IMG/VR virus record: IMGVR_UViG_3300037537_001252
Coordinates: 1-36,570 of that record
DNA: 36,570 bases
DNA from: a virus
Reading direction: 5' to 3' (one strand)
The position numbers and the translations under genes were made by a program. Below, one piece after another: positions 1,888 through 31,778 of this stretch; position 1 is the first letter of the stretch; every line of letters begins with the position of its first letter. The notes beneath the pieces are model-generated. The model saw only the letters and a list, made by a program, of their open reading frames with translations. It did not search any database and was not told the DNA's origin.

Positions 1888-2632
1888 ATCTACCAAATGC
1901 CCAATATCGTTCCTCACACCACCAACACTTTTCACAATGTTGTGTATGTGTATTAGTAAGTTCGGCTGATCCTTCACAACTGTACGTAAGAGGAAATAAT
2001 GTATCGGTTATATTATATTGTTTATACAATTCTGCCAATTGTTTTTTATCTATATCAAAAAACGGATTAATATAAAAACGAACACCATTTTCTGTTTTTA
2101 AAGGTCTATCAGCATCATCATCTCTACTACGTTCTTTATTTTTTGATATTGTATTATCATTGGAAGGAGGGTTGCGAGTTATCCCAGAATATAATATTTG
2201 AAATAAATTATCTCTAAAGTTTTGATCATCTCTATCCCAAAATTCTTTTATTTCTCGTTGATATTCATCATCAATAGGCGGATAATATACAATATGATCA
2301 TTCATTTTAACATTCAATTCCTCTTCAATCCAATCTATAACATTTCCTGCATATATTGGATTATTAGGTCTTCCTCTCCTAACAGATAAAGGTTGAATTT
2401 TTATATTTAAATTTTCGTCTTTAATTTTTTTAGCAAGTAAATATGCTAACATTGAACTGTCAGCCCCACCAGACATCCAAATACCTATGAATTTTACGAA
2501 CTGTTGTTCATAACATTCATCACCATAATGTCTAATATTACGCCAAATATCATCATTTTTAAATTTTGAATATAATTCTTCAATGTATATCTGTTTCAAT
2601 CTACGTATTGTTTTAGGAATTTCAATTTGCAT
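1880..2632 (-). CDS. QueC-like PP-loop ATPase
   Basis: A 250-residue protein with the PP-loop signature SGGADSS (54-60), which binds ATP pyrophosphate in enzymes that adenylate a carbonyl or carboxylate. The C-terminus carries C219, C233, C236 and C239 followed by an R-Y-W-A-F stretch, close in order to the zinc-binding end of QueC (7-cyano-7-deazaguanine synthase), though the first cysteine is further from the CxxCxxC than in typical QueC. QueC turns 7-carboxy-7-deazaguanine into preQ0, and phages use this chemistry for DNA deazaguanine modification. No QueD, QueE, FolE or DpdA is visible here, so an amide- or nitrile-forming step on another substrate is equally possible. It sits between two radical SAM genes with overlaps of 8 and 11 bases. 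Confidence 0.75.
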   Translation of the reverse strand: MQIEIPKTIRRLKQIYIEELYSKFKNDDIWRNIRHYGDECYEQQFVKFIGIWMSGGADSSMLAYLLAKKIKDENLNIKIQPLSVRRGRPNNPIYAGNVIDWIEEELNVKMNDHIVYYPPIDDEYQREIKEFWDRDDQNFRDNLFQILYSGITRNPPSNDNTISKNKERSRDDDADRPLKTENGVRFYINPFFDIDKKQLAELYKQYNITDTLFPLTYSCEGSAELTNTHTQHCEKCWWCEERYWAFGRYV

Positions 2633-4052
2633 ACCACTCTAACCATTCCAAATCAGGAAATATTTTTATAAAATTTAAGTTTCTTTTCTCTGCAACAGTA
2701 AAACACCATTCAGCAGTTTCAGGCAATCTCTCAGACCAATCTTCAGAGTTCATAAAAGACACAAGACCTTCAAGTCTTTTTATACCATACGGCAATTCTC
2801 TCCACTCTTTGAAGTCGATATTTTCGTCCTCAACCCCATTACATTTTTTCCAATTCTCTTCAAGCCAGGGATAAAACTCTTCAAATTTCTCAGTTACTTC
2901 TCGTTTAAACCATTTCGGTAATACTTTACAATTTAACTGTGGAGGCCAATATGCAAGATGCAAATCAATCATGCCTGCACCAGCAGGAAACTTATTAAGC
3001 AGTTTCCAATCTGTTTCTAATTTCCAACTTATAAATTCTGGCAAATAAAAAATATTAAGAGCAGTAATTGTAGTTGCTGTGGTTAATCTAAGATTACCAT
3101 GAGGATAATCATCTAACACATGCATCTGTTTTACAATTCTCTTCCAACGAGAAGGATATCGAATAAAATGATTTTTGTCTCCGTATGAATCTACACTAAA
3201 ATGAAAAATAACATTCTTAAATTCTTTCCAAAGATCAAACAAATTAGAATTCCATTCAAGCCCATTTGAATTATAACGAACTTCAATATCTTTCGCATAA
3301 CCCATTTCAATAATACGTTCAAGCACCATATAATGCTCTTTCATTATTAATGCTTCGCCGCCGGCCCAATATAGTTGTTTAAGAGTGGGAACTTGTGTCC
3401 AAAACTCATCCCAAAATGTAGGATTCGATTTATGCCATGCATATGATCCACCAGATCGAGCTAATTTTCCAGTATCTTTTTCCCAAACTTGAGAAGCACG
3501 TAATCTTTCATTTTTTAATGTAGGAAATATTTCTTTATATTCTTTTACCCACTTGGAAGAATCATGAGGACTACACATAACACATGCAAGTTGACATTTA
3601 CTACCAAGCCGAAGATCAATGTATCGTACTTTTGGAGGAACACTTCCATCCTCTGAAGTTTCTCCTATAACTTCTTCAAGTCCAAGTTCATGAACCCATT
3701 TAGCGGTTTCCCATTGTCTTTTTGAACGATGTCCAGCATCTTCCTCCTTAAAACATTTTAAACAAGATGCAGGACGCTCTCCTCTAAGCATCATTCTTCG
3801 CACGGACTTCATATATTCATTATTCCATGCATCTAGTAAACTTGTTGTTGCTAAATTGGCAGGCTTTCCATCATCTCTTCTAAGAACCCCTGCTTCGGGT
3901 ATAGTTTTTACTGTTGAATCCTTATCTTGAACAGAAGAAGCATTCGCAGTACAACATACACGCATATGTCCATTTGGTCTTGTAGAAATATGCATCCAAG
4001 GCAGGGCACAAAATGTACAAGAGGGCAAATTTTCAGGATCTTTATCGATCAT
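2622..4052 (-). CDS. Radical SAM protein with N-terminal twitch-like domain
   Basis: A 476-residue protein. The N-terminus has CTFC (12-15), CC (33-34) and CLKC (97-100), the cysteine module typical of the twitch-first radical SAM group. The core motif is CQLACVMC (C153, C157, C160), followed by an AGGEA segment in place of GGEP and an RYNSNG strand. The middle insertion is tryptophan-rich. It is the longest of the five proteins of this type in the window. It overlaps the oxygenase gene upstream and the QueC-like gene downstream by 11 bases each. The substrate is unknown; the modified GGEP motif is conservative and should still bind SAM. Confidence 0.87.
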   Translation of the reverse strand: MIDKDPENLPSCTFCALPWMHISTRPNGHMRVCCTANASSVQDKDSTVKTIPEAGVLRRDDGKPANLATTSLLDAWNNEYMKSVRRMMLRGERPASCLKCFKEEDAGHRSKRQWETAKWVHELGLEEVIGETSEDGSVPPKVRYIDLRLGSKCQLACVMCSPHDSSKWVKEYKEIFPTLKNERLRASQVWEKDTGKLARSGGSYAWHKSNPTFWDEFWTQVPTLKQLYWAGGEALIMKEHYMVLERIIEMGYAKDIEVRYNSNGLEWNSNLFDLWKEFKNVIFHFSVDSYGDKNHFIRYPSRWKRIVKQMHVLDDYPHGNLRLTTATTITALNIFYLPEFISWKLETDWKLLNKFPAGAGMIDLHLAYWPPQLNCKVLPKWFKREVTEKFEEFYPWLEENWKKCNGVEDENIDFKEWRELPYGIKRLEGLVSFMNSEDWSERLPETAEWCFTVAEKRNLNFIKIFPDLEWLEWYAN

Positions 4053-5840: not shown

Positions 5841-5848
5841 TATTTATA
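5841..5848 (-). promoter_or_regulatory. T4-type late promoter
   Basis: The minus strand reads TATAAATA, the full consensus of T4 late promoters recognised by the phage sigma-like factor gp55 with the gp33 co-activator. It lies in the only real intergenic gap of the window (5799-5843) and overlaps the TAA stop of the radical SAM gene upstream. A leader of about 40 bases leads to a strong Shine-Dalgarno and the nitroreductase ATG. Two other exact copies exist in the window, but both are inside genes. I infer late expression of the genes from 5.8 kb down to the left edge. Confidence 0.72.
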
Positions 5849-7172
5849 CTCTCACTAGGTCTTCTTTGATTATTTGATAATTTTTAAAATATTGATTAAA
5901 ATCTTGTCCCCATATTATATCAGATTTTTTTCTATATATCAACCATCTATTGAAATGATTATAACTTATTTTAGTATTTTTTATATAGTTTACAATATAA
6001 TCTAACCATTTTTTAGCATCATTACCTTTTATCAAGTCCATTTTAGATTTCGCTTTTTTCTCCATGCGTTCAATCAATTTATAAGTTTTTCTTATATCTT
6101 CCATTGTTTCATCATAAAAATCATACATTATAAGAGAAGGATCCAAATATTGAGGTGTCTGCACAATGGAAGCATCAAAATTCAACCCCAATTCAAAAAA
6201 AGATTCAAATACATCATAAATATCAAACATTTGATATATTGAAGTCGTACAACTCACATCAACATATGTAAAATTATTATAATCTCTAAATTCTTTAATA
6301 TTTTTCTTTAACTTATCCCAGCTACCACCATGTCTAAAATAAGAATAAAAGGTTTTTCCAGCATCTGCTGATATTATAATAGTAGATTTTCCAAAAAAAG
6401 ATAAAACATCAGATAATTCTGTAACACTAAAATCAGCATTAAAATTTGTATGAAATGAAAGATGTATATTTTTAGCATTAGGATGTTCTGCTAATTTTCT
6501 AAGCGTTGGAAAAAATTGTTTTTGATACAATACTTCTCCTCCAGCAACATCCACATAAGCCAAATTAGGAAAATTCTCATTTAAATCTTCCACTATTCTT
6601 AAAGCCTCATCAGTAGTCAATGACATTTCATTTCTATCGTTAGGACCATGTCTATGCTCTGTACCCAACAACTGTCTTAAATCATATAACTCATCTTCCT
6701 TATCTGGAACATAATTTTTTAATTTTTTTGTCCAACCCGATGAATATACTTTCGAACAATGCAAACATGAAAAATTACATGCTGTACTAAATCTAAATTC
6801 AACATGCCGCAATCCTTCAAAAGTAACAGAATGGTCTGTATTATCATAACAATCTAGTAATTTTTTACTTGCTATTTCTCTATCATCTTCTACCTTATTC
6901 TTACAAAAATAATTATCTGTATCTAATACATAATCAAATCTCATAGACTTTAAGTCAGATTTTTCCATTTCTTCACAAGTAGAACATCCTTGAGGCCATT
7001 GATCTTCATGTAATAATTTCCTCATGTCTCTAAAATTTTTGTGATTAAAAATTTTAGATGGCAATATTGTCTCATGAGCATAAACTAACTGATCTGCTTG
7101 TCTAGGGCATGTTGATATAACACCATTTTTATAATTTATTCCCCCAAGAGCATATAAACAATTTTTACTCAT
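5844..7172 (-). CDS. Radical SAM protein with N-terminal twitch-like domain
   Basis: A 442-residue protein with an N-terminal cysteine module (C5, C22, CSTC at 63-66) and the radical SAM motif CNFSCLHC (C132, C136, C139). AGGEV stands where GGEP is usual, and an HTNFNAD strand follows. The C-terminal 130 residues are lysine- and tyrosine-rich, without a cysteine cluster. It belongs to the same group as the proteins at 1-754, 2622-4052, 17386-18576 and 23207-24058. Its start overlaps the stop of an amidinotransferase gene (ATGA), so the two are probably coupled. Its stop codon forms part of the late promoter. The substrate is unknown. Confidence 0.87.
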   Translation of the reverse strand: MSKNCLYALGGINYKNGVISTCPRQADQLVYAHETILPSKIFNHKNFRDMRKLLHEDQWPQGCSTCEEMEKSDLKSMRFDYVLDTDNYFCKNKVEDDREIASKKLLDCYDNTDHSVTFEGLRHVEFRFSTACNFSCLHCSKVYSSGWTKKLKNYVPDKEDELYDLRQLLGTEHRHGPNDRNEMSLTTDEALRIVEDLNENFPNLAYVDVAGGEVLYQKQFFPTLRKLAEHPNAKNIHLSFHTNFNADFSVTELSDVLSFFGKSTIIISADAGKTFYSYFRHGGSWDKLKKNIKEFRDYNNFTYVDVSCTTSIYQMFDIYDVFESFFELGLNFDASIVQTPQYLDPSLIMYDFYDETMEDIRKTYKLIERMEKKAKSKMDLIKGNDAKKWLDYIVNYIKNTKISYNHFNRWLIYRKKSDIIWGQDFNQYFKNYQIIKEDLVRV

Positions 7173-13358: not shown

Positions 13359-14016
13359 AATAGGTTACCGATGAATGATAGTGTAATATTGCATTTATTA
13401 TCTCAATATCTTCAGGAGTCTTAACTAACATTCCTGCTTTTTTTGATATGGGACCATACATTTCATGTTTTCCACAAAAAATATTTCTCTCTTTCATAAA
13501 AACACTCGTTCTCACCACTTGAACAGAATACGCTATCATTTTCACAGGTTCTAAATCTTGAGTTTTACACATTTTTCCATATTCAAAATTAATAGGCCGA
13601 TCACCTAAACATGAATGTATATATTTTAATTCATATGTATTACAAGAATCTAATTCGTTTTCTTCATAGTAAGCCATCACTTTAGCAACTTCTTCTCCAG
13701 TTTGTAGAGGATTTACCGTATTTACTATTGCGGCAGTTTCGCATGGATTCTGTTCTATAAAGTCATAAAACACATCATCAATTAATGTCTCAGACGAACC
13801 CAAATTTATAGGTCTTTCATAATATTCAACACCATATTCTTTTGCAATCTTTCTAAAAACATCATTATCTCCATTCACTATAACTTTATCAAAACAATTT
13901 GATCCAAGAGCGGCTTTTATAGACCAAGCCATCATCGGCTCGCCGCCTATTAATGCTAAATTTTTAAGTTTTGCTCTGGTACTACCATATCTACAAGGTA
14001 TCATGGCATATTTCAT
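13348..14016 (-). CDS. Acylneuraminate cytidylyltransferase-like nucleotidyltransferase
   Basis: A 222-residue protein of the CMP-NeuAc/CMP-KDO synthetase superfamily. The N-terminal IPCRYGSTRAKLKNL (6-20) matches the CTP-binding R-x-G-S-x-R-x-x-x-K-N loop. VNGDND (47-52) and R77 in ERP fit the second conserved block, and the NTVNPLQTG segment matches the L-x-P-T/L region. The C-terminal T-P-E-D-I-E-I-I is typical of family ends. Such enzymes activate sugars or sugar-like alcohols and phosphonates with CMP. With an aminotransferase and a sulfotransferase just downstream, it could start a small nucleotide-activated compound pathway, though this is inference. It has a 4-base overlap with a SPASM radical SAM gene. 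Confidence 0.85.
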   Translation of the reverse strand: MKYAMIPCRYGSTRAKLKNLALIGGEPMMAWSIKAALGSNCFDKVIVNGDNDVFRKIAKEYGVEYYERPINLGSSETLIDDVFYDFIEQNPCETAAIVNTVNPLQTGEEVAKVMAYYEENELDSCNTYELKYIHSCLGDRPINFEYGKMCKTQDLEPVKMIAYSVQVVRTSVFMKERNIFCGKHEMYGPISKKAGMLVKTPEDIEIINAILHYHSSVTYYES

Positions 14017-14834
14017 ATCATCTCCATCAATTTGTTATAACTATCTTTTCCTAATAATAAACCATTTGCATCACATTCTTTACAAGATATCACGTTACAT
14101 CTATTTCCTTTAGACAATTCTTTTCTGTACTTGTTCATTTTATCAGACATCCAAAGTTCTTCTAATGTATTTTCTCTTAAATTTCCTAAACTTTCCTTAT
14201 ATTTCCAATCATTACAGCAAAATCTAAGATCCATAGTCAGATCAATATACCCTTTATAAAAAGGCAAATAACATTTTCTGTCTAAAGATTTTGATAAAGT
14301 TCTAAACGATCCGGATCTATTATTATAAATTGAAGACTGTAATCCACCAGCAAAATGGTTTTTAATCACCCCACATCTATCACCTAAAATTTCTATTTTT
14401 TTATTATAATTTTCTTCATTATCGTATTCATCTAGAATTATTCTACTTAATCCGTTATCAAATAACTCATCCAACATACTCGGAAATTCTAATATCTTAT
14501 CACCATTTGAAATTAATTCTATCCATTCATTTTTAAACACATTAATAATTTCAAGAATATCTGGATTGAGAAGAGGCTCTCCCTTACCACTTATAATAAT
14601 AATGCCTTGATATTCAAATTCATCAAGTCTATTTTTAATTAAATGAGCATCATCAATTGTTAAGTGTTCATCTTTATTAGGATACCCATTCCCTCTAGGA
14701 CAAAAACTACATGTTCTATTACAAAGTTCTGTAGGATTTATCTCAACAGTAGTCATTCCTAAAACAGGTTTTAAATTTTCATATTGAGCGGATCTAAAAT
14801 TTATATGATTACTAGAAGAAAACAAATTATTCAT
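14013..14834 (-). CDS. Radical SAM/SPASM protein
   Basis: A 273-residue protein. CNRTCSFC (C38, C42, C45) is the cluster motif, preceded by the strand TTVEINPTEL that is common in SPASM enzymes. SGKGEPLLNP replaces GGEP, and ELISNGD follows. The C-terminus has CYLPF, then RFCCNDW, the phrase SLGNLRENTLEELW, then CNVISCKEC, a good SPASM domain for two auxiliary clusters. SPASM enzymes mature peptides or oxidise alcohols, for example in aminoglycoside pathways. It has 4-base overlaps with the oxygenase gene upstream and the CMP-sugar synthetase-like gene downstream. This is the clearest classical SPASM protein in the window. Confidence 0.87.
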   Translation of the reverse strand: MNNLFSSSNHINFRSAQYENLKPVLGMTTVEINPTELCNRTCSFCPRGNGYPNKDEHLTIDDAHLIKNRLDEFEYQGIIIISGKGEPLLNPDILEIINVFKNEWIELISNGDKILEFPSMLDELFDNGLSRIILDEYDNEENYNKKIEILGDRCGVIKNHFAGGLQSSIYNNRSGSFRTLSKSLDRKCYLPFYKGYIDLTMDLRFCCNDWKYKESLGNLRENTLEELWMSDKMNKYRKELSKGNRCNVISCKECDANGLLLGKDSYNKLMEMI

Positions 14835-16698: not shown

Positions 16699-17416
16699 AA
16701 ATAAAATCACCTTCTATGCCTTGATTATAATAAGTAAGAAAATAATTTGCTATTGCTCTATGTCCAAATTTATTGGGATGAAAATCATCCTCACTTATAT
16801 GATACTCATTACGATTTTCATAGTCTATAATATCCAATATTTTAGGTATTGGTCCCTGCCAATATTGATTATTTTTACAAATATCAGAAAATTTTGATAA
16901 ATTAAAAATATCATAAGGTGCATTATATCCTTCTTTTTTAAATCTTTCCAATTTTCCTATTTGTAAAGGACTAATACCTTGACCACAAAGATATTCTATA
17001 CCCTTCGATTTACATAACTGTTTAGCCATATAAAACATTCTCAAATTTAAATTCACAACTTTTTTTAATGAAAAATGCTTATATGCAAATCCATGCGGAA
17101 GACCTCTTTCATATTCATGCATCATTCTCATAATTAAAGAAGAAGTCATATCTTTTGAATCTGTTTCAAAAAAACTTTGTCTGTCCCATCCAGTCCATAA
17201 AATACATACATCAGTTATATCAGAATATTCATATAGATAATCATATAAAAGATAAAAAATCTTCTCATTTCCTACCGCAATTTCTCCTAAATTTACTACC
17301 TCAATTTCCAATTCTTCACCTAAAACTGAGGGCCATCTTAAAAAATTAAGATCAGTCCTATAGTTATTATCTGTATAACTACATCCTAAGCATAATAATT
17401 TTTTACTCTTTCGCAT
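16691..17416 (-). CDS. SGNH hydrolase-like protein (copy 1 of 3)
   Basis: A 241-residue protein with LGCSYTDN (10-17), in which S13 is the likely nucleophile of block I, and a C-terminal DDFHPNKFGH giving the D-x-x-H dyad of block V. Members are esterases or deacylases, or act as O-acetyltransferases in glycan decoration. The ATG at 17416 is chosen because the motif then begins near residue 10 and a GGGAG lies upstream; the ATG at 17434 would add six residues. The protein ends in G-D-F-I-Y-E, and the other two SGNH proteins here also end in G-x-F-I-Y-(D/E). It overlaps the radical SAM gene by about 30 bases. Confidence 0.75.
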   Translation of the reverse strand: MRKSKKLLCLGCSYTDNNYRTDLNFLRWPSVLGEELEIEVVNLGEIAVGNEKIFYLLYDYLYEYSDITDVCILWTGWDRQSFFETDSKDMTSSLIMRMMHEYERGLPHGFAYKHFSLKKVVNLNLRMFYMAKQLCKSKGIEYLCGQGISPLQIGKLERFKKEGYNAPYDIFNLSKFSDICKNNQYWQGPIPKILDIIDYENRNEYHISEDDFHPNKFGHRAIANYFLTYYNQGIEGDFIYE

Positions 17417-18576
17417 GTATGAGCTAACTCCCATATTTCAGGATTAACATCTGAAAATTTTCTTTTTTGATATTCATCTAACTGCTTCATTGATTTTACA
17501 AATTCTAACAATTTATTTTCAGACTGTTCTTCATCTAATATTATTGTATTGAAATCATGTACATCATCATATGTCTGTTCAAGACCCATAAAATATATAA
17601 TATTTGATTTTTTAGGTAGGTTTATTTTCCATTGTTTTCTCATATCTAAAGGCACCATATTAGATTTTAAATAACTGGGCCAAAACAAAGAATAACAAGT
17701 TTGAGGTGTATCATATTGTCTAGAAAATTCTAAAATATTCTGCAATTTATTAATATTCATTATATTAACGGTAGTAACTAATTTAACAACATAATCTGTT
17801 TTTAAGAATTTTTCAATATTTTTTACTATCATTTTCCAAGGAGCGCCAAATCTCATAACTTCTGCTAACTCTTCAATAGCATCTATACTTATATCTAGAT
17901 AAACTTTTTTACATTTATTCAACAACCGCAATAATTCGTCATCTGGAAAAACACTACCATTAGTAGTAATCTTTAAATAAATATTTTTTAAATCTAATTT
18001 ATTTAAAAACCATTTCAAATTTCGACTCAAAAACGGCTCTCCACCAACTATAGCAACTCTTTTTAAATTCGATAAATCAGAATTTTCTAATAATATCTTT
18101 ATTTTTTTAGAATAGTTATTAATAGACAACGGTTCATAATGATCATGTTCGAATTCTTTCAATTTCTGTATAACACTTGTTGCTTTATTCCATGTTGAAC
18201 TGATTCCTGGTCTACAAGTTCTACACATAAAATTACAACTAAAATCTAATGAAATTTCTAAATCTTCTATAAGTTGTATTTGATGATTTTTTAAACACAA
18301 ATCATTATAATATTCTCTTTTACTTGAATATCCTATTCTTTCAGCATTCCAGCAATTTTTACATCCTTCATACTTCACTCCTTCCGAAAACATTTCTCGT
18401 AAATCATACCATCTGTAAGATTTTAATAATCCACTTAATGTATTTACAGAATTTAAATTAACTTGATCCCAATGAGGTTCTACGGAAGTGTCAAAATGAC
18501 AACAAGGAGATATCTTACCTTCGGGTTGGGTAATAGATAAATGATTTTGTTGATATGTACATACTAACTTTTCCAT
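17386..18576 (-). CDS. Radical SAM protein with N-terminal twitch-like domain
   Basis: A 396-residue protein. The N-terminal cysteine module is C6, CC at 25-26 and CKNC at 72-75. The radical SAM motif is CNFMCRTC (C114, C118, C121), with GGEPFL and TTNGS further on and an S-I-D strand after it. It aligns by eye with the proteins at 1-754 and 23207-24058, including the G-G-E-P-F/L and S-I-D-x-x-x-E/D-L segments. The C-terminal 100 residues are helical and polar with one cysteine pair region (H-T-C-E-R). It follows the minimal ANL gene with a 13-base overlap. Substrate unknown. Confidence 0.88.
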   Translation of the reverse strand: MEKLVCTYQQNHLSITQPEGKISPCCHFDTSVEPHWDQVNLNSVNTLSGLLKSYRWYDLREMFSEGVKYEGCKNCWNAERIGYSSKREYYNDLCLKNHQIQLIEDLEISLDFSCNFMCRTCRPGISSTWNKATSVIQKLKEFEHDHYEPLSINNYSKKIKILLENSDLSNLKRVAIVGGEPFLSRNLKWFLNKLDLKNIYLKITTNGSVFPDDELLRLLNKCKKVYLDISIDAIEELAEVMRFGAPWKMIVKNIEKFLKTDYVVKLVTTVNIMNINKLQNILEFSRQYDTPQTCYSLFWPSYLKSNMVPLDMRKQWKINLPKKSNIIYFMGLEQTYDDVHDFNTIILDEEQSENKLLEFVKSMKQLDEYQKRKFSDVNPEIWELAHTCERVKNYYA

Positions 18577-19172
18577 GTTTCTTTTTGTATTAATCTACCA
18601 ATACATCGATCATGTTCAAATTTATCTTCTGTATCAAACCCATCAACTATTAATGAATCTTGATATTCCAAATAGTATGGAGTATCTTTAAAATCAAACA
18701 TTGTATTATTTGACATCACCACCGGAGGTATGCTTTCAGTAGACCCATAAATATTCCAAATATTTTTAGCCCCTGTGGATTTCATTTGTTGAATATCTAA
18801 ATCTGTAATAGGAGCAGATCCTGTACTGAAATTTCTAATAAAATCCAAGTTTGGTTTTTTTCGTTTATATAACGTTCTAAAAGTTCCTATTGCTAAAGTC
18901 AAAATGGTTGGTCTCAATTCCTCTACCATATCCCAAAATTTAAAAGGTTCCATCTTAACATTTATTACTTCACATCCAGATATTTGAGCAGGAATAATAC
19001 AAAAAGCCCAATTTGCTATAGTCCAAGCAGGAAAGGGATTTAAAATTATATCTTCAGGAGTTAATTTCCACTTATTACATAAAAACTGTGCTGGCTTATA
19101 AAAATCCTTTTCAAGATGAGTAATACATTTTTGTTTTCCTGTAGTTCCACTGGTAAATAATGTTATTTTCAT
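18564..19172 (-). CDS. Minimal adenylate-forming (ANL/AMP-binding) domain protein
   Basis: A 202-residue protein with LFTSGTTGKQK (5-15), the ATP-phosphate loop (A3) of acyl-CoA synthetases and NRPS adenylation domains, and IYGSTE (141-146), the A5 motif that contacts the adenine ring. Normal family members are 450-600 residues with an upstream half and a mobile C-terminal domain bearing a catalytic lysine; both are missing here. The order of strands and helices between the motifs is normal, so it is a compact core rather than random decay. The ATG at 19170-19172 follows GGAGA closely and overlaps the stop upstream as ATGA; a TTG nine bases earlier is less likely. It could activate a carboxylate for the GNAT-like neighbour. 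Confidence 0.8.
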   Translation of the reverse strand: MKITLFTSGTTGKQKCITHLEKDFYKPAQFLCNKWKLTPEDIILNPFPAWTIANWAFCIIPAQISGCEVINVKMEPFKFWDMVEELRPTILTLAIGTFRTLYKRKKPNLDFIRNFSTGSAPITDLDIQQMKSTGAKNIWNIYGSTESIPPVVMSNNTMFDFKDTPYYLEYQDSLIVDGFDTEDKFEHDRCIGRLIQKETWKS

Positions 19173-19627
19173 ATTCTCCAAATCTCTTGATCTTCACCAT
19201 AGACTTCTTGAGTTCTTATATATGTACTTCCAGGCCACCCTCTTCCTGTATGCACCCATTTCCTTAATCTATTGCTTTTAGCACCAGTATTGTTTGATGT
19301 ATTGAGAGTAAAATAAAAAATAGACTTATCATGAATATTATTAATATAATCCATTTGAGCATATGCTTGAGTCTTATTTAAAATTTTATTTGAGACACCA
19401 GGTAAAGTTGCTCCTCTGAACATTACTCTATATCCGTCTAAAAACTCATGAACACCGCTCAATGAAACTATCCTATCATCAATGAAATGACCAAACCAAA
19501 TTGCTTTATTCCATTTCATTGATTCTAATGATTGATTATTTACATAATTCAACTTTTTACACTTTATACAAAATTCATGAACCTGAAAAAGATGTTCATC
19601 TGTCAATTGTATTGGTTCTGCTATCAT
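19169..19627 (-). CDS. GNAT-like acyltransferase (tentative)
   Basis: A 152-residue protein. Strands WFGHFIDDRIVSLSGV and a following R-V-M-F-R-G-A-T-L-P segment resemble the central beta strands of GNAT acyltransferases, and FYFTLNTSNNTGAKSNRL resembles the late strand and N-x-x-A/S helix of that fold. The usual Q/R-x-x-G-x-G/A acyl-CoA loop is not clear. It overlaps the halogenase-like gene by 32 bases and the adenylating-domain gene by 4 bases, so it could transfer the activated acyl group to an amine. That role is inference, and the protein may instead be an unrelated small enzyme. Confidence 0.5.
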   Translation of the reverse strand: MIAEPIQLTDEHLFQVHEFCIKCKKLNYVNNQSLESMKWNKAIWFGHFIDDRIVSLSGVHEFLDGYRVMFRGATLPGVSNKILNKTQAYAQMDYINNIHDKSIFYFTLNTSNNTGAKSNRLRKWVHTGRGWPGSTYIRTQEVYGEDQEIWRI

Positions 19628-20633: not shown

Positions 20634-21994
20634 AATACCTTTACACCCGTCTTTAATTCAAAAATTTTAGCATCTTTTTCTGTATTTACAATAGGTTCTC
20701 CTTTTACATTCAATGATGTGTTTAATAACATAGAACACCCTGTTTCTTTTTTCCACTCTTCTAGTAAAGTTCTGTGTGGTTCCTCAGACACTTCTTGTAC
20801 TCTTGATGTACCGTCAAGATGTATTATACTTGGATATTTCTCTTTTGTTTCATTTTTTGCTTTACGAATCGTATTCATAAATGGTGATGGAATGCCTTCT
20901 TCAAAATAACTATTCACATCTTCTTTCAAAATCATTGGCGCAAATGGTCTAAATTTTTCACGACCTTTAACCATATTCACTCTATCTTTCATATCAAGAA
21001 GAGAAGGATCAGCAAGAAATGATCTATTACCCAATGCTCTTGGTCCAAATTCTGCTTTTCCTTTTGCTACACCAACTATTCCCGTTTCTTTCAATTCTTT
21101 AATAATCTCTGTGACAGGATATTTACCAGATATCTCGTATCCAAGATATGGATTTGCTTTTATTTTATGATCTAAAGCACACCCAATAGCAGACCCGCCA
21201 TCACCTGGGTTGCAAGGTATGAATGTGTTATATTTCGTGAGAAAACGATTTGCAGATACGTTTAAAGCACACCCTCCAACAAAAACAAGATTTTCACCAT
21301 CAATTTCAGCTATAATTTTTTGAAACTCTTCTTCATATATGTCTTGTGCAATAGCGGCTATCTCAAACGTATTGATATTTCCCTCTATATCTATTCCTTG
21401 ATGAAAATTTTCACCAACATCCCACATTGATTTAATATATTGATAATCATGTATATTATAGTCTTTTACAACTGCTGATGCTCCCATCAAAATATATTCT
21501 TCTTCATTTGGCTTCCAACCAGCCCTCTGAGTCATTGCGGAATAAAACAAACCAAGTGATTTAGGATAATCCCATTTTTTAATTAATGTAAAATCATCAT
21601 CTTTTACTTTCCATTGAGTCATTGTATTCCACTCACCAATGGCATCTATTACTAAAACTGTACAATCTATAAAAGGAGATGTATAATATCCATATCGAGC
21701 ATGGGATTTATGATGATTACAATATATAACAGGATATTTAAAATTCAAATCACCAAGAGGTTTCTGTCCTGCATGTTTTCTTCGTTCAGCTTTAAGATTT
21801 AAATCTTCATAAAAATATACTATTTCAGGAACACCCCAGTTATTCTCTGCAAATTCTATCAAATTATCTGGAATGATAGAATCATTTTTCTTTCTGGACC
21901 ATCGTTCTGCATCAGAAGCAAATACCAGTTCATCATCTACAAAAACTGCTAATGCTCCATCATGAGAACCAAATGTTGTTCCCCATTTTATCAT
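20630..21994 (-). CDS. O-carbamoyltransferase (NodU/CmcH/TobZ family)
   Basis: A 454-residue protein. HHKSHA (94-99) and the N-terminal strand G-S-H-D-G-A match the Kae1/YgjD-like domain that makes carbamoyl adenylate, with VGGCALN as the next conserved turn. The C-terminal domain has FGPRALGNRS, REKFRPFAP and LNTSLNVKGEPI, the three most typical strings of the family. It is somewhat shorter than TobZ-type enzymes (about 570) but all blocks are present. Members carbamoylate hydroxyl groups on antibiotics and sugars using carbamoyl phosphate and ATP. It lies between a DegT aminotransferase gene and the halogenase-like gene, with 4-base overlaps on both sides. Confidence 0.93.
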   Translation of the reverse strand: MIKWGTTFGSHDGALAVFVDDELVFASDAERWSRKKNDSIIPDNLIEFAENNWGVPEIVYFYEDLNLKAERRKHAGQKPLGDLNFKYPVIYCNHHKSHARYGYYTSPFIDCTVLVIDAIGEWNTMTQWKVKDDDFTLIKKWDYPKSLGLFYSAMTQRAGWKPNEEEYILMGASAVVKDYNIHDYQYIKSMWDVGENFHQGIDIEGNINTFEIAAIAQDIYEEEFQKIIAEIDGENLVFVGGCALNVSANRFLTKYNTFIPCNPGDGGSAIGCALDHKIKANPYLGYEISGKYPVTEIIKELKETGIVGVAKGKAEFGPRALGNRSFLADPSLLDMKDRVNMVKGREKFRPFAPMILKEDVNSYFEEGIPSPFMNTIRKAKNETKEKYPSIIHLDGTSRVQEVSEEPHRTLLEEWKKETGCSMLLNTSLNVKGEPIVNTEKDAKIFELKTGVKVL

Positions 21995-22581
21995 ATATGA
22001 CTCACATCATCATAATTTTTATTAGTTGCAATTGGTTCATGTTTAGTTCCTTTTAATTTACGTAAATTTTCTAAACCCATAATTGCCGTTTCAGGTGACA
22101 TGTAATAATGATATCCACACAAAGTTGGTTTATCATCTTTCATCATTTTATTTTTATCACGACCATCATATATCATAAGTCTTGCCCATTCTTCAAACTC
22201 TTTGTCATCCGTCAAAATCATACCACCCCGTATTGTAGATAAAGTTTTGCGATGATGAAAACTCAGACAATGATAATCTTCTTTAGTATATGTTTTTTCT
22301 GAAAAATGACAAGCAGAATCAACTGTCATGGATCCAAATATATTATATGATCCTTCCCAAGCCTCATCATAATAATAAATTTTCAATCCTAAATGTCTGC
22401 ATGTCTGTGGCACACTAATATAAGTTTGACTAGGAAGCCCAACTTTTTTCAAGCCATGTTGTTCTTTTTGCCATAAAAGAGAAATGAAAATTGCATGAGT
22501 ACAACAATCTGTAGCAATGCCATAAGGCGCCCCAACAATTTCTTTAATTGTATTTTCAAATGTTGTTACGTAGTTCCACAT
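21991..22581 (-). CDS. Short DegT/DnrJ/EryC1/StrS-type aminotransferase
   Basis: A 196-residue protein matching the PLP-binding half of the DegT family. G-I-A-T-D-C-C-T-H-A near residue 21-30 is the phosphate loop, D88 in TVDSACHF takes the place of the pyridine-nitrogen aspartate, and K112 in SFHHRKTLSTIRGGM is the Schiff-base lysine before the G-G turn. Full-length members are about 370 residues; the C-terminal substrate domain is nearly absent here. The stop at 21991 is clean and no second half is seen downstream. It may work as a compact enzyme or as part of a complex. Typical products are amino sugars. Its start overlaps the upstream stop by one base (TAATG). Confidence 0.78.
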   Translation of the reverse strand: MWNYVTTFENTIKEIVGAPYGIATDCCTHAIFISLLWQKEQHGLKKVGLPSQTYISVPQTCRHLGLKIYYYDEAWEGSYNIFGSMTVDSACHFSEKTYTKEDYHCLSFHHRKTLSTIRGGMILTDDKEFEEWARLMIYDGRDKNKMMKDDKPTLCGYHYYMSPETAIMGLENLRKLKGTKHEPIATNKNYDDVSHI

Positions 22582-23210
22582 TACGAGTTTGTTGACATTT
22601 GTTTTTCTGGATTATACCATTGTTTATTCTTATCCATCCAATACAAAGATTGATGAGGATTTGGGGGTTCAACTGCTTCAGTTGTATAATAAAATTGTCT
22701 AACTGAATATCGTTTACCAGATGTAATTGGTTTCACTCCATGTGAAAAGGTTTCACTATGTTGAGTAAGCATCGCTGAATTGTGTTTGGGCTCTTCGGAA
22801 AATAATTCCACTTCTTTATTTTCATCTAATACATGATATTCCCCTCCTTCACATTCTCCCACATAAACTAATAAATTAACTGCACGATGTGCTTTGATTC
22901 TACTGTTCCAATTAAAATCTATATGAGCATCAAGCATATCATCTTTTTTCATTAATGAAACACCTTCACCTGTACCATAAGCATCAATAACCAAGCCACC
23001 TAGACCCGATTCTTTTTCAACCCATTCTATACATTTTTTAGAATGTAGATATTGTCTTATTTTATTGATAAATTGACCTTCTCCATAATACTCTTTCATA
23101 TGACTATTGTTACGTACAAAATCTTCCCATGCGTAGGTTGTTAGGGTTTCTAATTCCCTTAGTAAAAAAAGATCAAGATTGTCTTTTAAAAAATTGTCGT
23201 AATATTTCAT
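22581..23210 (-). CDS. Prolyl 4-hydroxylase-like 2OG-Fe(II) oxygenase
   Basis: A 209-residue protein with H96-I-D98 in LDAHIDFNWN, the strand RAVNLLVYVG, a GGEYHV strand, H157 in FSHGV and R167/R171 in KRYSVRQFYY. This is the usual HxD...H...R order of the prolyl hydroxylase-like group, which also includes many phage proteins. The iron ligands and 2OG-binding arginine are all present. The N-terminal 90 residues are helical, as in related phage oxygenases. It is joined to a radical SAM gene upstream by a 4-base overlap and to the DegT gene by a 1-base overlap. The substrate may be a small molecule or a protein residue. Confidence 0.83.
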   Translation of the reverse strand: MKYYDNFLKDNLDLFLLRELETLTTYAWEDFVRNNSHMKEYYGEGQFINKIRQYLHSKKCIEWVEKESGLGGLVIDAYGTGEGVSLMKKDDMLDAHIDFNWNSRIKAHRAVNLLVYVGECEGGEYHVLDENKEVELFSEEPKHNSAMLTQHSETFSHGVKPITSGKRYSVRQFYYTTEAVEPPNPHQSLYWMDKNKQWYNPEKQMSTNS

Positions 23211-24058
23211 ATTGGATAAACAAAATATTGATTAAAGTTATTTTCTATTATATGTCTGTCTTCTTCACTAATTTTTAATTTTTCAGGATATGTAAGTAGA
23301 TTCACTTGCCACTCACGATCACCTATCCATTCTTTCAATTTATGAAGACCCTGTACATTATTTTTGTGTACAACTGTATTTATTGTAACAGTCCACTCGG
23401 TTTCCAACTGTTCAACCGTTTCTACAATTGTTGTCCAGTCGGATCCTTCTCTTATTTTATCATTCAAATCTCCATATCCATCAATACTGACAAAAAATTT
23501 AACATGTTTACATTCACGCCAAAGTTTTTTCCATTCATCATCAGGTTTGAACATACCATTTGTAATGATAGTAAGGTCTAAGTCTTCACGTTCAATTTTT
23601 TCAAGAAGTTTTAAATATCGTTTATTCATCAAAGGTTCGCCACCAAGAAACACAAGTTTATCTAAATTAGGAATATTATATAATGTTTTTGTGGTTATAG
23701 TATTACCTGTAAATTGATTTGACCACGCCGCACCACACGGTTCACATTTCAAATTGCATATGTTATCTAATCCAACCCAAAGATTTTTTAATTTTATTTC
23801 ATTACAATTATATTGTTCATTAAAATATTGTCTTGTTGATTTTATACCATTATCTTCCTGATCCCAACATTTTGAACATTCTGATATACGTTCTTTCTGA
23901 AAACGTTCACGCAATTCTACATATTCTTTTGAGTGTAATATATTATCCACATCACCATCAAATATAGATATTTGTTTTTTAAACCTACAACATGGATATA
24001 TTTTTCCTCCATTTCTTATGTTTGTATGATTATATAATGCAGAGCATTGATGAGTCAT
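23207..24058 (-). CDS. Radical SAM protein with N-terminal twitch-like domain
   Basis: A 283-residue protein, the shortest complete one of its type here. The N-terminal module is C5, CC at 23-24 and CSKC at 61-64. The radical SAM motif is CNLKCEPC (C101, C105, C108), followed by GGEPLM, ITNG and S-I-D-G-Y-G-D-L. It closely resembles the truncated protein at 1-754 in all of these blocks. It has almost no C-terminal extension after the core. It has 4-base overlaps with the B12-type radical SAM gene upstream and with the oxygenase gene downstream. Substrate unknown. Confidence 0.88.
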   Translation of the reverse strand: MTHQCSALYNHTNIRNGGKIYPCCRFKKQISIFDGDVDNILHSKEYVELRERFQKERISECSKCWDQEDNGIKSTRQYFNEQYNCNEIKLKNLWVGLDNICNLKCEPCGAAWSNQFTGNTITTKTLYNIPNLDKLVFLGGEPLMNKRYLKLLEKIEREDLDLTIITNGMFKPDDEWKKLWRECKHVKFFVSIDGYGDLNDKIREGSDWTTIVETVEQLETEWTVTINTVVHKNNVQGLHKLKEWIGDREWQVNLLTYPEKLKISEEDRHIIENNFNQYFVYPI

Positions 24059-29041: not shown

Positions 29042-29844
29042 TCGTAAATAAATTTTCCTGTTTTTGTATCACGTTTTTTTCCAAAATTATAGGAATAACC
29101 TATATTTTCAGCAAAAGGAATAGGATTATAATCATTTTTAATGAATTTTTTTATATTCTCATATAAAACTGTATGATTTTCTTGTGAAAGATGATTTCTT
29201 CTATTGTCCACATAATCATAACCCTCATCTTCTAAATCAATAAATTCTTCATGAGAAATATGTCCTAATTCAACAGGATATAGATAAAAGTTTGGACTAT
29301 TAAGGTTTGCAATATCTAAAAAAGAACCCATTCTACTTAATATTTTTATACCAAAGGTACAAAACACAATTGTTTTCATATTCAACAATATAGAATTCAT
29401 ATAAAGAAATCCTACATTTTTAAAATTAGACCATTTCAACTCATCATGCATCGTTAAAAACGTAAAATCTATTTCACTTTTAAAGAATTCATAATATGCT
29501 TTTTCTTTCTTTAAAGAAGAGTCTTCGGCCCACCAACTCTTCTTTTTATCAAAATCCCAATTGACATGATTCATATCTTCAGGACCTATATTGGGAAAAT
29601 GAATTCTGTCTTCTCCACTCAACAAGAAAATAGTAATATAATCTTCTTTTCTTATTTCATTATCACTAATAAAATTATAATAGTCTTTAAAAGAATAATG
29701 GGGTCCTGTTCCAGATAAGGCATTGTTTATTATTTCATAATCAGATTCTAAAGATTCATACCACGTTGTCACCTTTTGATTTTCTTTTTTTCTTTCTTTG
29801 GGATCTGCAAAACTATCTCCAAATATTATTATCTTATTTTGCAT
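29038..29844 (-). CDS. SGNH hydrolase-like protein (copy 3 of 3)
   Basis: A 268-residue protein that opens with KIIIFGDSFADPKER (S11 is the block I serine). N-A-L-S-G-T-G matches block II. DNRRNHLSQENH near residue 210 is the likely block V region, with N-H-L-S as in the copy at 26682-27335 rather than D-x-x-H. It ends in T-G-K-F-I-Y-E, again sharing the tail seen in the other two copies. The ATG at 29842-29844 is preferred over the one at 29859 because the motif then starts at residue 4 and the overlap with the cysteine-rich gene falls to 16 bases. Function is unknown beyond the fold. Confidence 0.66.
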   Translation of the reverse strand: MQNKIIIFGDSFADPKERKKENQKVTTWYESLESDYEIINNALSGTGPHYSFKDYYNFISDNEIRKEDYITIFLLSGEDRIHFPNIGPEDMNHVNWDFDKKKSWWAEDSSLKKEKAYYEFFKSEIDFTFLTMHDELKWSNFKNVGFLYMNSILLNMKTIVFCTFGIKILSRMGSFLDIANLNSPNFYLYPVELGHISHEEFIDLEDEGYDYVDNRRNHLSQENHTVLYENIKKFIKNDYNPIPFAENIGYSYNFGKKRDTKTGKFIYE

Positions 29845-30206
29845 AAATGTCCACAACATTCAGGTAAGGTTTCTTCTTTTTTCCAAAATTCTGGCTTAAT
29901 ATGGTTTCTCCATGTTTTTAAAATATCTTTTAATTTATGTTTCTTTAAATTATTCCAGTCTTTATCCAAATTGTCTAATTTTTTATCAAAAAATGTTTTT
30001 TCTAATTGATGTTCTGCATGTAAGGTACAACATGGATATACAGAAAAATCGGATGCTATTTCAACTTCTCCCCAATCTTTAAATTGATGCCATCCTATAC
30101 AATAAACCAAATCTTTAAAATTTTCAGGTAAATTATGTTTGTTCTTATTTATTTTTTCTGGCAAATTTTCATACAAAGGGGGGGACATGTCTTTTCGTTC
30201 TTCCAT
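29829..30206 (-). CDS. Stand-alone SPASM/twitch-like cysteine-rich protein (second of a tandem pair)
   Basis: A 125-residue protein. After a 30-residue lysine- and asparagine-rich start come YCIGWHQ, VYPCCTLHAEHQ, a W-x-x-L-x-x-x-x-L-x-D-I-L helix and a C-terminal PECCGHLC. The order C, CC, helix, CC-x-x-x-C matches the gene just upstream (30149-30424) and resembles the auxiliary-cluster modules fused to radical SAM enzymes. No CX3CX2C radical SAM motif or barrel is present. It overlaps the upstream copy by 58 bases if the first ATG is used; an ATG at 30188 is also possible. It may provide Fe-S clusters in trans to the two short radical SAM proteins upstream, which lack such a domain. This role is inference. 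Confidence 0.65.
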   Translation of the reverse strand: MEERKDMSPPLYENLPEKINKNKHNLPENFKDLVYCIGWHQFKDWGEVEIASDFSVYPCCTLHAEHQLEKTFFDKKLDNLDKDWNNLKKHKLKDILKTWRNHIKPEFWKKEETLPECCGHLCKIR

Positions 30207-30424
30207 ATTTTTTCATTTAATGTTTTATTATATTCTTTAAGAATATTATTTAAAGAATTTGTTTTAAGATTGATATCTATATGACTAATAGCATCATCAG
30301 GTTTTCCGTTTGTCAGATGCTCTGTATAATAATGACAACATGGAAAAACATTTAAATTCAAATCAATTTCATATTGATGCCACTGCTGGGATCTATAATT
30401 ATAAAAATCACATTTTATTTGCAT
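30149..30424 (-). CDS. Stand-alone SPASM/twitch-like cysteine-rich protein (first of a tandem pair)
   Basis: A 91-residue protein with C5, then QQWHQYEIDLN, VFPCCHYYTEH (CC), an N-N-I-L-K-E-Y helix and a C-terminal CPPLCMKIC. It lines up over its whole length with the second half of the protein at 29829-30206, so the two are tandem duplicates. It has six cysteines in 91 residues, at positions expected for Fe-S ligands. It follows the radical SAM gene at 30415-31095 with a 10-base overlap. It could be an auxiliary-cluster subunit or a small cysteine-rich substrate of these enzymes. The sequence cannot decide between the two. Confidence 0.66.
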   Translation of the reverse strand: MQIKCDFYNYRSQQWHQYEIDLNLNVFPCCHYYTEHLTNGKPDDAISHIDINLKTNSLNNILKEYNKTLNEKIWKNEKTCPPLCMKICQKK

Positions 30425-31095
30425 CTGAAATTTTCTATATTATGGGCATTAAGTAAACCTTCACAGTTATTGATCTTTACATCATCAAGTTTATTAAATT
30501 CTCGACCATTAAATCTACACAATAAATCCAAATCATGTTTTTTTGCAAACTTTATTACATCAGATAATTCATGATAATTATGATTAAATATAGTATAATC
30601 CCATCTAGTATATGCATATTTTGCAGATTCAATCATATTTTTTAATGCAATATCAGTTCTTACATTAACTCTATATATTTGATTTATTTCATCTGTTAAT
30701 CCATCAATACCAAATACAAAATGAGTTTTTTTATGCTTTTCTAAAAAATTCTTCACCCAGTTTGGATTTCGTAAACCGCCATTTGTATAAATTTCAACTG
30801 AATCAAATACATCCTCCGCTATTGAAGCCAATTCACTCAAATCAGGATTCATTAAAGGATCACCTATTTCACCACAAAATTTTGCAACCAATTTGATATA
30901 TTGATTTTTCAGATGAAAATAAATGAAGTTTGTATTATGTGATATTAAAAATTTAAAGTCTTCAACTTTTAAATGTTTAATTACTAATTCTCTTTTCTGC
31001 TCTGTTGGAAATATTGTTCTAAAACAACTAGGACAACCAGCATTACAGTATGATGTGACTTCAAAATTAAATAAACAATCTTCATTATTTAACAT
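30415..31095 (-). CDS. Short radical SAM protein without auxiliary domain (second of a pair)
   Basis: A 226-residue protein with the motif CNAGCPSC (C17, C21, C24) only 16 residues from the start. GEIGDPLMNP takes the place of GGEP, followed by IYTNGG and FGIDGL. It ends just after the core barrel and has no SPASM or twitch domain. It is a paralog of the gene directly upstream (31095-31778): both share the C-N-A-x-C-P-S-C, G-E-x-G-D-P, T-N-G-G-(L/I)-R and I-D-G-L-x-D-(E/D) blocks. The start overlaps the upstream stop by one base. The pair is followed by two cysteine-rich mini-proteins that could complete it. Substrate unknown. Confidence 0.85.
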   Translation of the reverse strand: MLNNEDCLFNFEVTSYCNAGCPSCFRTIFPTEQKRELVIKHLKVEDFKFLISHNTNFIYFHLKNQYIKLVAKFCGEIGDPLMNPDLSELASIAEDVFDSVEIYTNGGLRNPNWVKNFLEKHKKTHFVFGIDGLTDEINQIYRVNVRTDIALKNMIESAKYAYTRWDYTIFNHNYHELSDVIKFAKKHDLDLLCRFNGREFNKLDDVKINNCEGLLNAHNIENFRCK

Positions 31096-31778
31096 TAGTT
31101 TGCCAATACTAATGTACTTGATCTAAATTTATTTTTTTCATATAAATCAACAACATTAGGTATTAATCTCTCTTTAATTCTAAATTTAGGTCGAGTATTT
31201 ATTTTTAAAACAACAGATATATTATATAATTTTGCAAAATCTAAAACTTCTGGTATTTCAAACCAATTATGTTCAAAAATAATATATTGCCAAGACACAT
31301 TTCTACATCCATATTTACTTTTAGAAAATGCAATCATATTGTCAATTGCTTTTTGAGTCTTCACTCTTCTTCTATATAATCCATTCAAATCATCATGTAA
31401 ACCATCTATTGAAAACATAATTTCCAAATTTCTATACGTATTTCCTACATCATTAAAAAATTTTGGAGTTCTTATGCCGCCATTAGTAATTACTTTTAAA
31501 TTTTTAAAAATTTTCACACCAAGGTCAATAAAAGAATTTACATGTGGATGAACCATGGGGTCTCCCAATTCACCCTCATATGTTACATATTTGTTTGTAA
31601 ATAAATCAATATCTCTTTCGATAATAAATTTAAACATATCAAAATCCATATGAATTTGATTTAATCCTGGGTGTAGAGGTTCGTTAGGAATATCAATTGG
31701 ATTGTTATGACTTTCATATCTTTTACAAGAAGGACATGCGGCATTGCAATAACTGCTTATTGTAAAATCATAATCCAT
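31095..31778 (-). CDS. Short radical SAM protein without auxiliary domain (first of a pair)
   Basis: A 227-residue protein with CNAACPSC (C11, C15, C18), GELGDPMVHP, VITNGG and FSIDGL. It has no C-terminal cysteine cluster and stops shortly after the core. It is a tandem paralog of the following gene, with the same modified GGEP. Two similar enzymes side by side could form a heterodimer or act on successive positions of one substrate. It starts one base into the stop of the glycosyltransferase-like gene upstream. Fold and cofactor are secure; the reaction is not known. Confidence 0.85.
   Translation of the reverse strand: MDYDFTISSYCNAACPSCKRYESHNNPIDIPNEPLHPGLNQIHMDFDMFKFIIERDIDLFTNKYVTYEGELGDPMVHPHVNSFIDLGVKIFKNLKVITNGGIRTPKFFNDVGNTYRNLEIMFSIDGLHDDLNGLYRRRVKTQKAIDNMIAFSKSKYGCRNVSWQYIIFEHNWFEIPEVLDFAKLYNISVVLKINTRPKFRIKERLIPNVVDLYEKNKFRSSTLVLAN

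Follow-up and report, generated by a model that had tools for sequence, protein, structure and literature searches.

Core-only radical SAM proteins and stand-alone Twitch-like domains probably form two-gene enzymes in a marine phage

Results

The window, i.e., the whole 36.6-kb virus record analyzed in this study, contains four genes of interest, which all lie on the minus strand and were found at the positions that an earlier sequence-only reading had given for them. They are transcribed in the order RS1, RS2, mini1 and mini2 (31778-31095, 31095-30415, 30424-30149 and 30206-29829, respectively). RS1 (31095-31778, 227 aa) and RS2 (30415-31095, 226 aa) share 30% sequence identity and possess a CX3CX2C motif at residues 11-18 and 17-24, respectively, which takes the forms CNAACPSC and CNAGCPSC in RS1/RS2 proteins. 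RS2 matches PF04055 above the cut-off (E 3e-8), RS1 below it (E 1e-3), and RS1 further matches phrog_21308, a phage radical SAM family (E 2e-12). Based on PF04055 and the CX3CX2C motif within a partial TIM-barrel core, both proteins belong to the radical SAM superfamily. Both stop at the end of this core and lack a cysteine-rich tail, while the C-terminal end of RS2 lies at the point where a Twitch domain would start. Motifs, profile matches and the missing tails thus bear out the earlier description of a tandem radical SAM pair that ends right after the core. Relatives of RS1 were found in 10 contigs, and RS2 has a distant match in the cultured SAR11 phage Mosig.

Downstream, mini1 (30149-30424) encodes 91 aa with the cysteines C5, C29-C30, C80, C84 and C88, and its start overlaps the end of RS2, its probable partner, by 10 bases. 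The second small gene, mini2 (29829-30206), encodes 125 aa with C36, C59-C60, C117-C118 and C122, and its probable partner is RS1. Since the majority of aligned relatives begin at Met7 (30188), this residue is probably the true start of mini2, giving a protein of 119 aa; residues 1-30 fall outside the conserved domain. Both proteins had been described as tandem paralogs with a C, CC, helix, C-x-n-C layout. This description held, as they share about 30% identity, the cysteines C, CC, C, C and in addition W, P and I, the conserved layout being C..CC..C-x3-C. The 26 stand-alone minis share without exception C36, C59, C60, C118 and C122 (mini2 numbering) as well as one Trp and one Ile. An alignment of divergent minis contained no block of sufficient conservation for use in a scan.

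SPASM was defined by seven cysteines (CX9-15GX4C-gap-CX2CX5CX3C-gap-C) and two clusters (PMC6231123). The minis comprise C, CC, C, C only, without CX2CX5CX3C, and do not show this full motif. Its first half, CX9-15GX4C, is present in relatives from the loci L036, L042, L043, L062 and L077; in the minis of the window the glycine is absent and the spacing is wider (C-x17-F-x4-C and C-x18-L-x4-C). A Twitch domain is a half-SPASM, built of Cys, beta-hairpin, Cys, helices and two Cys with one auxiliary cluster of the [4Fe-4S] or [2Fe-2S] type, and the minis agree with this in their cysteine layout and in the order of predicted strands and helices. Since the full SPASM motif is missing, we classified the minis as Twitch-like and expect one cluster in each. 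Pfam SPASM was matched by 20 of the 26 stand-alone minis if E values up to 1 are counted (best 1.1e-7), while both minis of the window scored under the curated cut-off, mini2 with an E value of 0.006. In the AlphaFold2 model of mini2 (pLDDT 86, about 86-97 per ten-residue block in the conserved part) C36 is followed by a short hairpin, C59-C60, helices and C117/C118/C122. The same order of elements is given for the Twitch domain of SkfB, in which a ligand cysteine stands behind the hairpin and two cysteines behind the second helix (PMC6231123). A Foldseek search of the PDB with the isolated mini2 model delivered no match, perhaps caused by the small size of the model, and the mini profile produced noise-level matches only among PDB sequences, such as the C-terminal part of YydG at E 0.34. 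We read the minis as Twitch-type (half-SPASM) domains for an auxiliary cluster that are detached from the core, and not as substrates.

The core family is large in phage contigs, with at least 555 relatives among 599 candidate stretches, and the relatives that were fetched are mostly single chains of 300-420 aa. Pfam SPASM was matched by 34 of 52 single-chain relatives, and a mini-only profile matched the C-terminal region (about residues 250-340) of L070, L074, L081, L099, L114 and L115 with E values of 1e-5 to 1e-4. Inspected by eye, the single-chain tails comprise I-x-C, a hairpin ending PCC, helices and C-x3-C, as do the minis. Since tails and minis align from I-x-C on, the start codon of mini1 coincides with the domain boundary. 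The predicted model of the single chain of L070 (pLDDT 88, pTM 0.88) matched SkfB best (E 1.3e-10), followed by SuiB, BlsE, anSME and MoaA, with TM-scores near 0.5. In addition, reverse fusions of the type mini::core were found in L064 (4971-5897, 308 aa), in L066 (4973-5977, 334 aa) and in near-copies. Both fusions sit directly after a split core and mini pair, and their cores cluster with the split family in the tree described below. Among phage relatives the same domain is found after the core, before the core and alone. We consider fusion in both domain orders the strongest evidence for mini and core acting together.

Core-only ORFs never contained the mini motif; they had a mini as neighbor, stood in a 2+2 block (RS1, RS2, mini1 and mini2), were cut by the contig end or belonged to L077. 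None of the 57 complete single-chain ORFs had a mini neighbor and 46 carried the motif inside; the reverse fusions account for two more long ORFs. Mini homologs without radical SAM genes had been named as evidence that would speak against a joint function. Scans begun from mini sequences alone delivered no such orphan, since each locus that they returned had an adjoining radical SAM core. Core and auxiliary domain in one chain, the layout of Twitch/SPASM radical SAM enzymes, is found neither for the four genes of the window nor in the whole split lineage.

Two loci deviate in their layout. In L138 (1661-2995) the core shares its chain with a 2OG-Fe(II) oxygenase-like domain at the N-terminus (E 0.0013), and the mini follows as a gene of its own. 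In L077 (1645-4927), which was obtained from the core scan, one SGNH-like gene is inserted between core and mini, and next to them lie a truncated radical SAM ORF of 82 aa and another mini-like ORF. Core and mini overlap by 4 bases in L130, a close relative of L077.

The split core/mini arrangement occurs in about 44 records (hand count of contigs), roughly half of them distinct, and one of these is a cultured phage, Pelagibacter phage Mosig (Mosig_00084/Mosig_00085). The 2+2 block is kept in 12 other contigs, ranging from near-copies down to about 45-50% identity. If the window is compared to L014, pN is 0.16 and pS 0.40 for mini1, pN is 0.11 and pS 0.28 for mini2, and pN lies below pS for RS1 and RS2 as well. 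Because the block recurs in 12 contigs and pN is well below pS, the four-gene pattern is not a product of chance. In annotated phages, tblastn found no match of mini2, and Mosig_00085 found only itself. Among cellular genomes the cores matched one archaeal MAG only, where the core is fused, and the mini profile, run against 100 genomes of the phylum of this MAG, returned the same genome only, again in fused form.

A tree was built from 94 cores. It unites 30 split cores with the two reverse fusions (SH-aLRT 93), while the cores of Mosig, L043 and L077 stand outside this group on branches that are long or unsure. Monophyly of the split cores as a whole was not rejected (p-AU 0.55, and 0.54 after six more cores had been added). 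From a phylogenetic perspective, the split is old and arose once or a few times; there may have been a second fission, since L077 and L130 adjoin a fused pair in the tree. With regard to the partners, L026 and L057 are one-pair loci with an RS1-type core and a mini2-type mini. Distances of RS1 correlated with those of mini2 at 0.84-0.92 and with those of mini1 at 0.31-0.47, the former correlation probably being driven largely by L026 and L057, and correlations of RS2 were weak. RS1 apparently belongs to mini2 and RS2 to mini1, the latter pair being suggested by adjacency and elimination. Given these cognates, the pairs would be nested in the gene order, not parallel.

A T4-type RNase H (PF09293) within the window indicates a T4-like phage. 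The same window encodes a cytidylyltransferase, a carbamoyltransferase, a DegT aminotransferase, a Trp-halogenase-like protein, a nitroreductase, a deiminase-like protein and a B12-type radical SAM protein that is KedN5-like (below cut-off). N-terminal-Twitch proteins of the NF033640 type are located at 2-754, 2622-4052, 5844-7172, 17386-18576 and 23207-24058 (four above the cut-off, one just below), and the window holds Twitch domains both before a core and stand-alone. This gene content points to a biosynthetic island of the phage. A short radical SAM protein, encoded at 14013-14834, has a cysteine-rich tail at its C-terminus. Furthermore, two enzymes are strongly shortened, namely an AMP-binding protein of 205 aa at 18564-19181, which matches profile positions 167-330 only, and the DegT aminotransferase at 21991-22581 (196 aa). 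Enzymes that are small or split may be more widespread in the island. Campylobacter phage CP220 (L037, 69406-77921) comprises several single-chain radical SAM genes and a possible glycine amidinotransferase, a content like that of the island in the window. For pelagimyophages, cassettes of radical SAM genes within the host-recognition island were noted earlier (PMC7029224).

Discussion

The four genes very probably encode two paralogous Twitch-type radical SAM enzymes of two genes each, which would assemble as RS1-mini2 and RS2-mini1. The basis for this is domain identity by homology, fusions in two orders, strict linkage, conservation and purifying selection. Of the two explanations offered by the sequence-only reading, an enzyme and its Fe-S partner, encoded separately and duplicated, is strongly supported by the fusions in both orders, the SPASM/Twitch matches and the lack of any orphan mini. 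In either enzyme the [4Fe-4S] cluster of the core would be the site of SAM binding. The mini would contribute a single auxiliary Fe-S cluster close to the active site, which it would also cover on one side, in the way expected of the fused domain. For the minis we infer Fe-S binding, complex formation with the core and an auxiliary-cluster role in either substrate ligation or electron transfer. Core and mini would be made from overlapping genes, presumably under translational coupling since start and stop codons overlap, and would combine to a heteromeric radical SAM enzyme of the Twitch type as part of the phage biosynthetic island. Its substrate probably is a sugar or small molecule that the island around it produces. 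One might go further and speculate that the auxiliary-cluster domain is an obligatory, separate and possibly exchangeable subunit and that RS1, RS2, mini1 and mini2 form one four-subunit complex for coupled steps, an idea that we regard as tentative and rather doubtful.

Three other readings of the locus were weighed. The minis could be general ferredoxin-like Fe-S donors or swappable modules that serve several radical SAM enzymes of the island and are not fixed subunits of any. Many other radical SAM proteins are indeed present in the island, and auxiliary clusters are able to take part in intermolecular electron transfer, as in PapB (PMC10470005). However, the minis are strictly linked to this one core family, several other radical SAM proteins of the window have Twitch-type domains of their own, and the fused relatives make the domain part of the enzyme, so that we consider a shared donor very improbable.

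According to the second explanation of the sequence-only reading, the minis are small cysteine-rich substrates of RS1 and RS2; they might be RiPP-like precursors or modified proteins. A small cysteine-rich ORF beside a radical SAM gene is a layout common for RiPP systems, and the minis, being small, cysteine-rich and adjacent to radical SAM genes, resemble it. In contrast, the minis match SPASM, their cysteines occupy auxiliary-cluster ligand positions flanking hairpin and helices in the predicted models, and no leader/core peptide layout was noticed in the mini alignments. Since many relatives have this domain covalently joined to the enzyme, in both orders, the substrate reading is disfavored and in our view highly improbable.

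Least probable of all is that the split is an assembly frameshift artifact or that programmed ribosomal frameshifting yields one RS2-mini1 chain: although the 10-base overlap of RS2 and mini1 recurs with an identical frame offset in most 2+2 loci and a shift would yield the canonical domain order, the offset from the RS2 equivalent to the mini is not constant, being 1 in L040, L043, L062, L064 and Mosig but 2 in the other loci, and the overlap ranges from 1 to 56 bases. Furthermore, RS1 and mini2 do not adjoin each other, the mini precedes the core in some loci (L026), and the split is present in a cultured phage genome. Because frame relations differ between lineages, neither a sequencing error nor a conserved frameshift accounts for the arrangement, and a programmed frameshift between RS2 and mini1 was rejected.

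If the proposed two-gene Twitch enzymes are compared to known systems, the C-terminal Twitch enzymes SkfB, BtrN and MoaA show the same succession of a core and then a hairpin plus helices with one auxiliary Fe-S site, which is predicted for the proteins studied here. However, they are single chains of core and Twitch, whereas separate genes without an RRE-like N-terminal domain are found in the window. The mini::core proteins of L064 and L066 share their domain order with the N-terminal-Twitch family NF033640 (N_Twi_rSAM), of which the window contains members as well. They differ from it in that their cores group with the split family, and against the NF033640 cut-off of 170 bits (full-length score) the L066 fusion reached 60.9 bits and RS1 32.4, while RS2 was not listed. 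With the SPASM enzymes SuiB, CteB and anSME several relatives share the first half of the motif, and the overall fold is like that of SuiB and anSME; yet these enzymes are single chains, and their second-cluster motif CX2CX5CX3C...C is missing in the minis. Pelagibacter phage Mosig EXVC030M encodes a 211-aa core-only radical SAM protein and, after it, a mini of 112 aa in which the same cysteines are present (Mosig_00084/00085), but the identity is about 25% and the phage has one pair only. In the phage record these genes are named 'molybdenum cofactor biosynthesis enzyme' and 'hypothetical', and the link between both is not annotated. Mosig_00083 (L036:7120-7986) is annotated as molybdenum cofactor biosynthesis enzyme too, yet comprises no CX3CX2C and is likely misannotated.

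No stand-alone SPASM/Twitch protein is described in the literature searched, which covered few subscription journals. Single-chain Twitch radical SAM enzymes are well known, while a conserved lineage with a separately encoded Twitch domain appears to be undescribed. Taken together, these results would explain the function of one class of 'hypothetical' phage ORFs, the minis, and Mosig_00084/00085 provides a pair from a cultured SAR11 phage that is directly testable. What the auxiliary clusters do in SPASM/Twitch enzymes is a matter of ongoing debate (PMC10470005, PMC6231123). A detached Twitch domain would allow the auxiliary cluster to be added, withheld, mutated or swapped with the core left untouched, which is impossible in single-chain enzymes.
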